Assembly: GCA_018333655.1 (NCBI GenBank)
Contig: JAGXTJ010000044.1
Coordinates: forward strand, 1-64,000
DNA: 64,000 bases
DNA from: Bacillota bacterium
GTDB lineage: Bacteria > Bacillota > UBA994
Reading direction: 5' to 3'
Shown: piece after piece, positions 16,218-61,197 of the stretch
Numbering within the stretch: position 1 is the stretch's first letter
Layout: each line of letters begins with the position of its first letter
The notes under the pieces: model-generated
The model's database searches: none
Told to the model about the DNA's origin: nothing
Seen by the model: the letters and a program-made list of their open reading frames with translations, nothing else
Program-made: the position numbers and the translations under genes

Positions 16218-17097
16218 GCATCGTCAGCCATACCCCGAGGATGATGAGTGCGCCTCCGAGTAGCATGGTCAAGGTTAGGCGCTCTCCGAGGAGCAAAACA
16301 GCCCAGGCGATGGCGAAAACTGGTATCAAGAAGAGTGTAATCGAGGCCTGTGAAGCTTGCACACGTTCTAAGAGATAGAAGTACGCGACCACGGCGACTG
16401 AGGTCGGGATGATACTCAAGTAGGCAAGAACGGCCAGATGAGTTCCTGTTAAGGGAGCTAGTGCGGGCCAGCCCTCGAGTAGCGCCGCGGCCAAAATTAG
16501 CTGCACAGCCCCTATCGTGGTGGCCCAGGCCACCACGATAGGGGGTTTTTCGTTGCGCAAGATAGCCTTGCTCTGTAGGGTATAGATGCTATACCCTAGG
16601 GCAGCACCGACCACTAGTAAGTTGCCGACACTTTCTCCCCAATCCTGCACCCATTGACCATTGGTAATGACCAAGACCACCCCGCCAAAAGCACAGACTA
16701 AGCCGGCGACTTTCGACCTCGTAAATTTTTCTCCCAGGAGTAATATAGAGAGCACGGCTGTGAATATGGGGTCTAGGGTGCCAAGCAGGGCCGCACTGCT
16801 CGCGCTGGTCAAAGTAAGCCCTAGATTCTGCAAAAAATTATTCACAAAAACACCGACAAAACCAAGGAGCAAGTACGTTTTGTAGCGGCGCTTAAAGGAG
16901 AGAACCATCTCTTGCCAAGAATAAACATATGTTGCGTATGTTAGAAGCACCAAGGCTCCGACGCTAAAGCGTAAGGCGGCCAACGTGGTAGGCGGCAAGA
17001 CATCTAGGAGCAGTTTGGAAAGTGGAAAAACAGTCGACCACAGTAGGGCCGGTGTCAACAAAAGCCATCGCAGTCGAATCTCCCGCTGTTTTTTCAG
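16204..17097 (-). CDS. EamA/DMT-family transporter, apparent CTG start
   Basis: A 297-residue membrane protein with ten predicted helices in two EamA repeats; the second repeat starts near VGNLLVVGAALGYSIY. Seen: LRFSVGALVLL, SSAALLGTLDPIFTAVLSILLLGEK and the mirrored ASITLFLIPVFAIAWAVLLLGERL, hallmarks of drug/metabolite transporters. Start: the first ordinary start in frame (TTG 17061) has no ribosome site, but AGGAGG at 17105-17110 lies seven bases before CTG 17097, giving the basic leader KKQREIRLRW before helix 1, as expected. Its middle contains a perfect palindrome (16509-16544). Substrate unknown. Confidence 0.85.
   Translation of the reverse strand: MKKQREIRLRWLLLTPALLWSTVFPLSKLLLDVLPPTTLAALRFSVGALVLLTYATYVYSWQEMVLSFKRRYKTYLLLGFVGVFVNNFLQNLGLTLTSASSAALLGTLDPIFTAVLSILLLGEKFTRSKVAGLVCAFGGVVLVITNGQWVQDWGESVGNLLVVGAALGYSIYTLQSKAILRNEKPPIVVAWATTIGAVQLILAAALLEGWPALAPLTGTHLAVLAYLSIIPTSVAVVAYFYLLERVQASQASITLFLIPVFAIAWAVLLLGERLTLTMLLGGALIILGVWLTMLKRT
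16509..16550. repeat. Terminator-like perfect palindrome inside the DMT transporter gene
   Basis: CCCCTATCGTGGTGGCC (16509-16525), a two-base CA centre, then its exact complement to 16544, followed on the plus strand by G and five T. On the plus strand this has all features of a strong intrinsic terminator, but it lies within the transporter coding sequence, where it encodes part of a helix (PPIVVAWATTIG). Antisense terminator, accidental codon pairing or insertion relic are all possible. Confidence 0.75.
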
Positions 17098-49961: not shown

Positions 49962-50216
49962 GTGAATGAACGCATGGACGAAACTAAGCTGATTCAGAAA
50001 GTAGAGGTAGACCGCAAACAGTTAGTTCGAGAGGTTCTCGAACAAGTGACTGTTGCCCTGCGCGAAAAAGGCTACAACCCGTCATTCCACATTGCAGGCT
50101 ACCTCTTGTCTGGCGACCCTGCCTACATTACCTACCATAAGCAGGCGCGTAACACCATCCGTCGCGTCGAGCGCGACGAAATCTTGGAGGAACTACTCGA
50201 TTCCTATCTCAAGTAA
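49962..50216 (+). CDS. ireB: IreB-family regulatory phosphoprotein (UPF0297/YrzL)
   Basis: An 84-residue cytosolic protein. Seen: the family pattern [62 protein letters not shown] in short conserved blocks, and an N-terminal TKLIQK where Enterococcus IreB is phosphorylated on threonines. Known: IreB is a substrate of the IreK Ser/Thr kinase that controls cell-wall stress resistance. GGGAGGT is eight bases before GTG 49962. In the conserved order it precedes ruvX; here an aldo/keto reductase is inserted. Confidence 0.94.
50186..50190 (+). promoter_or_regulatory. Shine-Dalgarno possibly used with an ATT start
   Basis: GGAGG inside the last codons of ireB lies nine bases before ATT 50200, which is in frame with the aldo/keto reductase. 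The only ordinary in-frame start (TTG 50239) lacks any ribosome site. Suggestive, not decisive. Confidence 0.45.
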
Positions 50217-50238
50217 AACCAGTCTAGGTACAGTTACT

Positions 50239-51168
50239 TTGTGCCGGGGTGTCAGTGTATCGCCACTGTGTTTTGGTACACTGACCCTCGGCCCTTTGCA
50301 AAAAAACCTCAGCCCCGAGGCGGGTGGCAGGTTGATTAGCCATGCCTATGCACAGGGCATTACCTTTTTTGATACGGCGGAGCTTTACGGCACCTACGCC
50401 CATTTACGTGCGGGGCTTGGCAGTAAGATCGGCGAGGTCGTCATCGCCAGCAAAAGCTATGCGGCCGATGCCCCCAGTATGGCCAAGAGCGTGGAGCGGG
50501 CCAGAGCCGAGCTTAATCGCGACTACATCGACATTTTTTTGCTGCATGAGCAAGAGTCAGTGCACACGATGAAAGGCCACCGCGAGGCCCTAGACTACCT
50601 ACTAGACCTAAGAGAAAAGGGTGTAGTTCGTGCAGTGGGTCTATCTACTCACCATGTGGCTGGCGTGCGGGCTGCCTATGGTTGCCCCGATATCGACGTC
50701 ATACACCCCCTCATAAATCTTTCGGGCATTGGTATTGCCGATGGCACCCGCGAAGAGATGGCCGAGAGTATTCTAGAAGCAGGTCTGGCAGGCAAGGCGG
50801 TTTATGCCATGAAAGCCCTGGCCGGGGGGGCGCTCTTTCGTCAGGCCGCCGCCGCCCTTACCTATGTGCGGCAGCTTCCTGGAGTTAAAGCCCTGGCAAT
50901 TGGCATGGGCAGCATAGCCGATATTGAGGCCAATGTTGCTTTTTTTGCGACTGATGCCTTCCCCCCGTCCTACGCCATGGATGGCGAGAGGGGAGAGCGT
51001 AGACTGCTCATTGAGCCATGGTGCGCAGGCTGTGGAGACTGTGTGCCCCACTGCCGTGCGAACTGTCTGGCCGTTAAGGGAGACAAAGTCGAAGTCGACC
51101 ATAGTCGCTGCACTCTCTGCGGGTACTGCGTCGCGCACTGCAAAGGTTTTTACATGAAGGTGATATAG
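50239..51168 (+). CDS. Aldo/keto reductase with C-terminal ferredoxin domain
   Basis: At least 309 residues. Seen: the AKR barrel with FGTLTLGPLQ, FFDTAELYGTYAHLRAGLG (catalytic Asp and Tyr), ARAELNRDYIDIFLLHEQ, VRAVGLSTHHVAGV and AIGMGS; then two 4Fe-4S motifs CAGCGDCVPHCRANC and CTLCGYCVAHC. This fusion is common in anaerobes, where the iron-sulfur tail passes electrons. Start unclear: TTG 50239 is the only standard codon but removes part of the N-terminal hairpin; ATT 50200 with GGAGG restores it (322 residues). It lies between ireB and ruvX, an unusual insertion, and abuts ruvX. Confidence 0.88.
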   Translation: MCRGVSVSPLCFGTLTLGPLQKNLSPEAGGRLISHAYAQGITFFDTAELYGTYAHLRAGLGSKIGEVVIASKSYAADAPSMAKSVERARAELNRDYIDIFLLHEQESVHTMKGHREALDYLLDLREKGVVRAVGLSTHHVAGVRAAYGCPDIDVIHPLINLSGIGIADGTREEMAESILEAGLAGKAVYAMKALAGGALFRQAAAALTYVRQLPGVKALAIGMGSIADIEANVAFFATDAFPPSYAMDGERGERRLLIEPWCAGCGDCVPHCRANCLAVKGDKVEVDHSRCTLCGYCVAHCKGFYMKVI

Positions 51169-53219: not shown

Positions 53220-54425
53220 ATACTACCTGAACTTTTAGCCCCTGCCGGAACACTCGAGAAAATGATCTTCGCCCTCAAGTATGGGGCCGATGCGGTCTAC
53301 GCCGCCGGCCCCCAGTTTGGCTTGCGGGCTTTTGCCGGTAACTTCACCCTACCTGAATTAAAAGAGGGCATCCACTTAGCTCACAAACTAGGGCGCAAAG
53401 TCTACATTACGGTCAATATCATGCCCCACAACGACGACCTAGTGGGTTTGCCAGAGTACTTAGAGACTATTCAGGCTCTAGGTGCCGACGCCATTATCTT
53501 GAGCGACCCCGGGGTGCTCCTCCTGGCCAAGCAGTATGCCCCCCGCCTTAGTCTCCATCTTAGTACCCAGGCCAACACCGTAAACTATGCTGCCGTACGT
53601 TTTTGGCAGGCCCAGGGCATTAAGCGGGTTATCTTGGCGCGCGAACTAAGTGCGCGCGAAATTGCCGAAATTCGCCGCGCCGCCCCAGAGATGGAACTCG
53701 AGATCTTTGTGCACGGCGCCATGTGTATTTCTTACTCTGGGCGCTGCCTGCTCAGCAACTACATGACCGGCCGTAATGCCAATAAAGGCGAATGTGCCCA
53801 CCCCTGCCGCTACCAGTACTCTCTCGTCGAGCAGAAGCGTCCTGGCCAGTTCTTTGACATAGAGGAGGACGACAGGGGTAGCTACATCATGAACTCCAAA
53901 GATCTCAGCCTTTTTAAGCACTTGGGTGAGATTTTGCCGCTTGGTCTCGAGGGCCTTAAAATTGAGGGTCGTATGAAGAGCGTTCATTATGTTGCTACGG
54001 TCACCCGCGCCTACCGCCTCGCCCTAGACGCCTTAGCCAGAGGGGTAGCGCCACCCGTAGACCTAGAGCGCGAGCTATTTCAAGTCAGCCACCGTGACTA
54101 CACCTCTGGTTTTTTTGTCGCCAAGCCAGAGGCTCGCGACCATAACTACGAGGGGGCCAAAGAGAAAGGCGAGGCGCAGTTTCTCGGCATCGTGCGTGGT
54201 TACTCGCCCCTCCATGGCCTACTCATTGAGCAACGCGGCCATTTCAAAGTGGGCATGAAGGCCGAAATCATTGGTCCGCAGAGCGGCCCCTACCCACTCA
54301 CCATCGAAAGCATAGTAGACAGCGAGACCTTGCTTCCCACCGATGCTGCTCGCCACGCACAGCAACTCGTCTATGTTCCGCATCAGGGTGCTGTAGAAGA
54401 ATACTCTATAGTCCGCACTGCTTAA
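53220..54425 (+). CDS. U32 family peptidase / tRNA-hydroxylation-type protein, apparent ATA start
   Basis: A 401-residue protein if started at ATA 53220. Seen: PELLAPAGTLEKM immediately after that codon, the universal first strand of U32 proteins, then FALKYGADAVYAAG, VNIMPHNDD, FVHGAMCISYSGRCLLSNYMTGR with the family cysteines, GECAHPCR, and LKIEGRMKSVHYVA. Known: U32 relatives such as TrhP act in tRNA uridine hydroxylation; others are called collagenase-like peptidases. Starting at ATG 53262 would delete the conserved PELLAPAG, so a non-standard start is favoured. It corresponds to B. subtilis yrrO. Confidence 0.9.
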   Translation: MLPELLAPAGTLEKMIFALKYGADAVYAAGPQFGLRAFAGNFTLPELKEGIHLAHKLGRKVYITVNIMPHNDDLVGLPEYLETIQALGADAIILSDPGVLLLAKQYAPRLSLHLSTQANTVNYAAVRFWQAQGIKRVILARELSAREIAEIRRAAPEMELEIFVHGAMCISYSGRCLLSNYMTGRNANKGECAHPCRYQYSLVEQKRPGQFFDIEEDDRGSYIMNSKDLSLFKHLGEILPLGLEGLKIEGRMKSVHYVATVTRAYRLALDALARGVAPPVDLERELFQVSHRDYTSGFFVAKPEARDHNYEGAKEKGEAQFLGIVRGYSPLHGLLIEQRGHFKVGMKAEIIGPQSGPYPLTIESIVDSETLLPTDAARHAQQLVYVPHQGAVEEYSIVRTA

Positions 54426-60459: not shown

Positions 60460-61197
60460 ATCACAACCCTACTCTGGCTCCTCGTGGGCTCCTTTTTTAA
60501 CGTCGTCATACACCGCTTGCCCCGCGGCGAGAGCATCGCCTTCCCCGCCTCGCACTGTGTGCACTGCGGGGTGCGGCTCTCTGCCAAGGAGCTCATCCCT
60601 TTCTTCTCTTACGCCTGGCAAAGGGGGCGTTGCCGGCATTGCGGCAAGCCCATCTCTTTACGTTACCCCTTGGTCGAACTATTGACGGCGGTGTTGCTCA
60701 CATTACTCTGGTACTTGCACCAGGGTGGGCCGGCGGTTTATGCCTACCTAGCCTTCACCTCTCTTCTAATTGTGATTAGCTTTATCGACTACGACCATTT
60801 TTTAATACCCGACCAACTGCTCGTTGCCGGGCTTGGCGTGTGGTTGCTACAGCAACTTTTTCTTCCCTTTATTGCCTGGCCGCTGGCTTTGGCAGGTGGG
60901 GCCCTGGCTTTTGCCATGATGCTTGTTATCTACGTGCTCTCGCGCGGGGGCATGGGCTTTGGCGATGTGAAACTGGCGGGGCTTATTGGGCTCTACCTCG
61001 GCACGCCGCTGGCCATGCTTTCGCTCTTTCTCGCCTTTGTCCTCGGGGCGGGCATCGGCCTCTTGCTCCTCGCCTCGGGTCTAAAAAAGCGGAAGGACGC
61101 CCTGCCTTTTGGCCCTTTCTTGGCTGTCGGCGCGTTCTTAGCCATGGTCTGGGGGCCGCAATTTATCACTTGGTATCGAATCTTTTTTGGACTGTAG
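60460..61197 (+). CDS. pilD: Prepilin peptidase PilD, apparent ATC start
   Basis: A 245-residue membrane aspartyl protease and N-methylase that processes prepilins. Seen: LLVGSFFNVVIHRLPRGES in helix 1 and loop, the zinc motif CVHCG and CRHCG, the catalytic aspartates in DYDHFLIPD and GMGFGDVKLAG, and seven to eight helices. Start: read from ATC 60460 the protein begins (M)TTLLWLLVGSFFN, as in relatives; GTG 60478 or the internal frame at 60484 would cut helix 1. It serves the four or more prepilins of this operon. Confidence 0.92.
   Translation: MTTLLWLLVGSFFNVVIHRLPRGESIAFPASHCVHCGVRLSAKELIPFFSYAWQRGRCRHCGKPISLRYPLVELLTAVLLTLLWYLHQGGPAVYAYLAFTSLLIVISFIDYDHFLIPDQLLVAGLGVWLLQQLFLPFIAWPLALAGGALAFAMMLVIYVLSRGGMGFGDVKLAGLIGLYLGTPLAMLSLFLAFVLGAGIGLLLLASGLKKRKDALPFGPFLAVGAFLAMVWGPQFITWYRIFFGL

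Follow-up and report, generated by a model that had tools for sequence, protein, structure and literature searches.

Where does translation of an aldo/keto reductase (AKR) gene begin when the start codon shared by its relatives has been lost and the only standard start codon nearby codes for a conserved residue? This question is raised by a window of 64,000 nucleotides, the whole stretch of DNA analysed here, which belongs to a draft genome of 2.2 Mb in 57 contigs. Between 49.9 and 51.6 kb, the genes are, in order, alaS, ireB, AKR and a ruvX-like gene; family matches identify ireB and AKR, and the names alaS and ruvX come from sequence and position only. The ireB gene (49962..50216, plus strand) matches the IreB family (NCBIfam, E 1.2e-30; Pfam, E 5.9e-30) and ends in a TAA stop codon (50214-50216), the putative coupling point for AKR. 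Read from an ATT codon, AKR covers positions 50200..51168 of the same strand; it matches Pfam Aldo_ket_red (E 5.8e-22) and carries a C-terminal 4Fe-4S region in which ten Cys are invariant or near-invariant in the alignment. Because the gene callers in common use recognize no start codons other than ATG, GTG and TTG, genes with near-cognate starts are shortened or mis-started in databases.

The initial annotation had described an ATT at 50200 (50200..50202, plus strand) with GGAGG nine bases upstream, and TTG 50239 (50239..50241, plus strand) as the only standard codon, and both are indeed present and in frame. The GGAGG (50187..50191, plus strand) is a possible Shine-Dalgarno (SD) sequence that lies within ireB. 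Its predicted pairing with the anti-SD is -9.3 kcal/mol, versus -3.8 kcal/mol for TTG 50239, which is preceded only by a weak TAGG, and 0.0 kcal/mol for CTA 50224; near the AKR start, only ATT 50200 has a strong SD. An Rfam search for RNA elements at the locus returned no match.

The relatives indicate where the family begins. In an alignment of 21 proteins, the start Met of 20/20 relatives lines up with residue 9 of AKR in the window, which is encoded by CTA 50224 (50224..50226, plus strand). In the congeners, AKR starts with a TTG placed directly after the ireB stop (TAGATTG), with an SD pairing of -5.8 kcal/mol; in sister genera, the junction with the ireB stop reads TAATG, TAGTG or TAATAAATG, and in genera of another family in the class it reads ATGA or GTGA. 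The AKR start of these relatives thus overlaps or touches the ireB stop; in nine of them it lies within a few bases of that stop with no useful SD (-2.5 to +1.3 kcal/mol) and, therefore, AKR was probably read ancestrally by termination-reinitiation on ireB. The ireB stop of the window sits six bases further upstream than that of the congeners, neither the family start nor the SD of the congeners is left, and the nearest standard start, TTG, lies 22 nt past the stop. Comparison at the sequence level shows, then, both the loss of the family start and the coupling-type junctions of the relatives. AKR is under purifying selection (pN 0.19 versus pS 0.77-0.79) and, in consequence, some start works.

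The main rival to ATT 50200 is TTG 50239, which ribosomes would reach by reinitiating 22 nt past the end of ireB. The N-terminus would then be five residues shorter than in relatives, and the ATT would be a chance product of the ireB coding sequence. This genome uses TTG as a normal start (30/191 concordant starts), AKR of the relatives needs no SD, the bases in between are poorly conserved (13/22 differ from the congener G002 at 50217-50238, unlike a conserved N-terminus), and a phage gene pair is coupled at +23 nt (PMC12548453). Nevertheless, almost no coupling is usually left about 20 nt past the stop (PMC10666635), and from CTA 50224 onwards the second codon position agrees with G002 in 4/5 codons (manual count). 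The protein itself also speaks against this start: TTG 50239 codes for the near-invariant Leu14, which it would replace, and starting there would cost the protein half of its first beta strand (residues 12-15), a strand that the structure model places in a block with pLDDT about 95 (residues 1-6 are below 50). Initiation at TTG 50239 is possible, but we consider it unlikely. The remaining odds are shared by CTA 50224, ATC 50206 and sequence error. CTA hardly initiates translation. As for error, a wrong base or a faulty assembly could hide the true start near CTA 50224 or could have created the ATT, the window coming from a single draft genome with consensus bases only; but turning CTA into the TTG of the congeners takes two changes, the neighbouring bases differ as well, and the sample contains no split coding-strand gene (all six pairs that were flagged are frames on the antisense strand), all of which makes this explanation very improbable.

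How much weight can the motif at ATT 50200 bear by itself? It is in frame and its SD is suitably spaced, but that SD doubles as coding sequence of another gene, and orthologous starts align to CTA 50224 instead. Among internal in-frame near-cognate codons of the sampled genome, 136/5516 (2.5%) have an SD of at least 5 bases at 4-11 nt; an SD followed by ATT is, as a bare motif, not strong evidence. In addition, the GGAGG forms part of the ireB codons for the conserved ILEEL end (coding sequence E-I-L-E-E-L), and GAGG is also found in ireB of relatives whose AKR starts elsewhere; the SD is not independent evidence, because those codons impose GAGG. The ATT itself consists of the last two bases of an ireB Asp codon and the T that opens the Ser codon after it. 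This Asp codon is GAT in the window and GAC in both congeners, so that the latter read ACT in their AKR frame at this site, and the ATT is private to the window species. The proposal that AKR starts at ATT thus falls short of proof, its SD being explained by ireB coding; it is, in any case, the best candidate to replace the lost start, with roughly even odds judged from the sequence.

The following course of events would account for these observations: (i) AKR was ancestrally translated by termination-reinitiation, from a start that adjoined or overlapped the ireB stop and could do without an SD; (ii) the window species has its ireB stop six bases further upstream, and CTA in place of the family start (TTG in the congeners); and (iii) translation would now most likely begin at ATT 50200, within a 17-nt overlap with ireB, where the GGAGG of the ILEEL codons and the ribosomes finishing ireB would aid an initiation of reduced efficiency. 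Such a start would add a disordered eight-residue tail ahead of the conserved AKR fold, and ATT 50200 would join the other near-cognate starts of a lineage in which such codons seem to be tolerated. To this explanation as a whole (a coupled start lost and ATT 50200 taking over in a tolerant lineage) we give a probability of about 0.48; we infer that ATT is used, how efficient it is, and that tolerance is the reason. The other near-cognate starts of the genome are counted as support for ATT 50200.

Three of these lie in the window. The initial annotation had named a CTG, an ATA and an ATC start without coordinates; matched here by fit, they correspond to CTG 17097, ATA 53220 and ATC 60460, each of which is supported by comparison and holds up better than ATT 50200. 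The CTG start (17095..17097, minus strand) belongs to an EamA transporter and has AGGAGG seven bases upstream, with a pairing of -12.1 kcal/mol versus -2.1 kcal/mol for TTG 17061. Both congeners keep the CTG and the residues that follow, and their case is ambiguous, since they carry an ATG or GTG in frame six codons further upstream, at a site that reads TAG in the window genome. The ATA start (53220..53222, plus strand), with GGAGG eight bases upstream, belongs to a gene of the U32 peptidase family (TrhP-like). A standard start just before (P)ELLAPAG is present in 15/15 relatives read and in the window there is none; upstream of the first ATG, 12/13 residues match G002, and 10/12 of the differences fall at third positions. 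The ATC start (60460..60462, plus strand) opens a prepilin peptidase gene (A24_N_bact, E 8.2e-33); G002 also has ATC, with GGGAG eight bases upstream, and a sister genus has GTG there.

Beyond the window, a survey of 400 kb more of the same genome and about 1.1 Mb of G002, which yielded 263 ortholog pairs, added two cases. An ABC-F gene (YbiT-like; L165, G000:C55, minus strand) starts with ATT throughout the three species of the genus and with ATG in a sister genus, where the sequence is nearly identical; its alignment to the best NCBIfam model begins at residue 2, opposite model position 2. A short upstream frame (6783-6757, MSKTCKGR) ends three bases before this ATT (6753); the same eight residues precede the ATG of the ortholog in a sister genus (L253), and the congeners have MSNL. 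From its sequence and position, this frame looks like a leader peptide with reinitiation. The second case is nadE (NAD synthase; L171, G000:C6, minus strand), with ATA 10617 at the place where nine relatives have ATG, and with its SD kept. All five starts (U32 ATA, prepilin peptidase ATC, EamA CTG, nadE ATA and ABC-F ATT) coincide with the ortholog start or lie at most a few codons from it, precede conserved coding sequence, and have no standard start that would keep the conserved N-terminus. Two other candidates were rejected as internal codons: the ATA of L155 (shared TTG upstream) and the CTG of L163 (shared ATG upstream). A possible further start, an ATT at L159:13384 (plus strand) aligned with an ATG of G002 in a small membrane-like protein, was left out of the count, since it has no family match and G002 is the only relative read.

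The count is then about 5/263 ortholog pairs (1.9%), three of the five within the window; G002 shares three of the five cases, EamA being ambiguous there. In Listeria, 6/2265 conserved (core) genes have fixed non-canonical starts (PMC13068326). By our own arithmetic, that rate predicts 0.7 in 263 pairs, and five or more would have a Poisson probability near 7e-4, a soft comparison given that the methods differ, the numbers are small and the window had been picked out for its near-cognate starts. A control of 328 gene comparisons in relatives gave, once antisense frames and an Hcp-like frame cut short close to a contig end had been excluded, no near-cognate start except that of infC. The wider pattern noticed at the outset is real, and its frequency exceeds the Listeria prediction, subject to those reservations.

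What might cause such a pattern? Two causes had been put forward, an altered IF3 or initiator tRNA and sequence error, and neither fares well. IF3 is nearly identical to that of the congeners, and infC keeps its ATT start, which lies behind AGGAGGTGG in the window genome and both congeners and fits the autoregulation of IF3; both tRNA-fMet genes, with their GGG:CCC stem and 1-72 mismatch, match those of the congeners; and the anti-SD is normal. No unusual residues were found in IF3, the initiator tRNA or the anti-SD with respect to relatives, and a change in any of the three is rejected as the cause. In the family as a whole, the initiator tRNA genes (L140-L145) show U1 facing U72 where C1-A72 is usual, and most of them are duplicated in tandem, beside tRNA-Gly and tRNA-Tyr. 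Widespread assembly error is likewise rejected, no coding-strand gene of the sample being split, and error is unlikely for most sites, since genomes assembled separately show the ABC-F, prepilin peptidase and EamA codons again; the bases of the U32, nadE and AKR cases are private to the window genome.

Relaxed start selection throughout the lineage, brought about by an altered initiation component, would explain AKR and the other near-cognate starts together. It is favored by the rate set against that of Listeria, by the clean control among relatives, and by concordant TTG starts that are commoner in the window species than in the congener (30 versus 19 of 191). Against it stand the ordinary IF3, initiator tRNA and anti-SD, the small numbers, the differing methods and the fact that three of the five cases lie within a window chosen for this feature. 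As a common explanation it is unlikely, and lineage-wide relaxation is at most suggested by the data. A related and slightly less doubtful conjecture is that in this uncultured Bacillota genus, and in the window species most of all, roughly 1.5-2% of genes start with ATA, ATT, ATC or CTG owing to a change in initiation outside IF3, tRNA-fMet and the anti-SD.

Near-cognate starts as such are already known (PMC13009471, PMC13068326), and it is their number in one genome that is the point of interest. A lineage rich in supported near-cognate starts would directly test the drift of bacterial start selection and what permits it, and the AKR locus shows what may happen once a coupled start codon is lost.

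Among known systems, infC, whose IF3 product is autoregulated, resembles AKR in having an ATT behind an SD, and it does so in the window genome too; it differs in that its near-cognate start is family-wide and its SD very strong (-15.2 kcal/mol), whereas the ATT of AKR is private to the species and the SD before it belongs to the coding region of another gene. The coupling of genes by termination-reinitiation (PMC10666635, PMC12548453) is matched by the relatives, whose AKR start touches or overlaps the ireB stop, and the window AKR departs from it, with no standard start in its frame within 20 nt of that stop. In Staphylococcus aureus, where AUU and AUA starts reach about 10-30% of AUG efficiency, cvfC1 (AUU) and ccpN (AUA) also combine a near-cognate codon with an SD where no other start is expected (PMC13009471); these starts are conserved and were mapped by ribosome profiling, while the ATT of AKR is a candidate read from sequence. 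A parallel in layout is that of Listeria rsbW, in which ATG-to-ATT/ATA variants lie in the overlap with rsbV: as at ireB-AKR, an ATT sits within a 17-bp overlap with the upstream gene, and there it is translated weakly (PMC13068326). The ATT of rsbW replaces an ATG at the family start, whereas that of AKR precedes the family start by eight codons.
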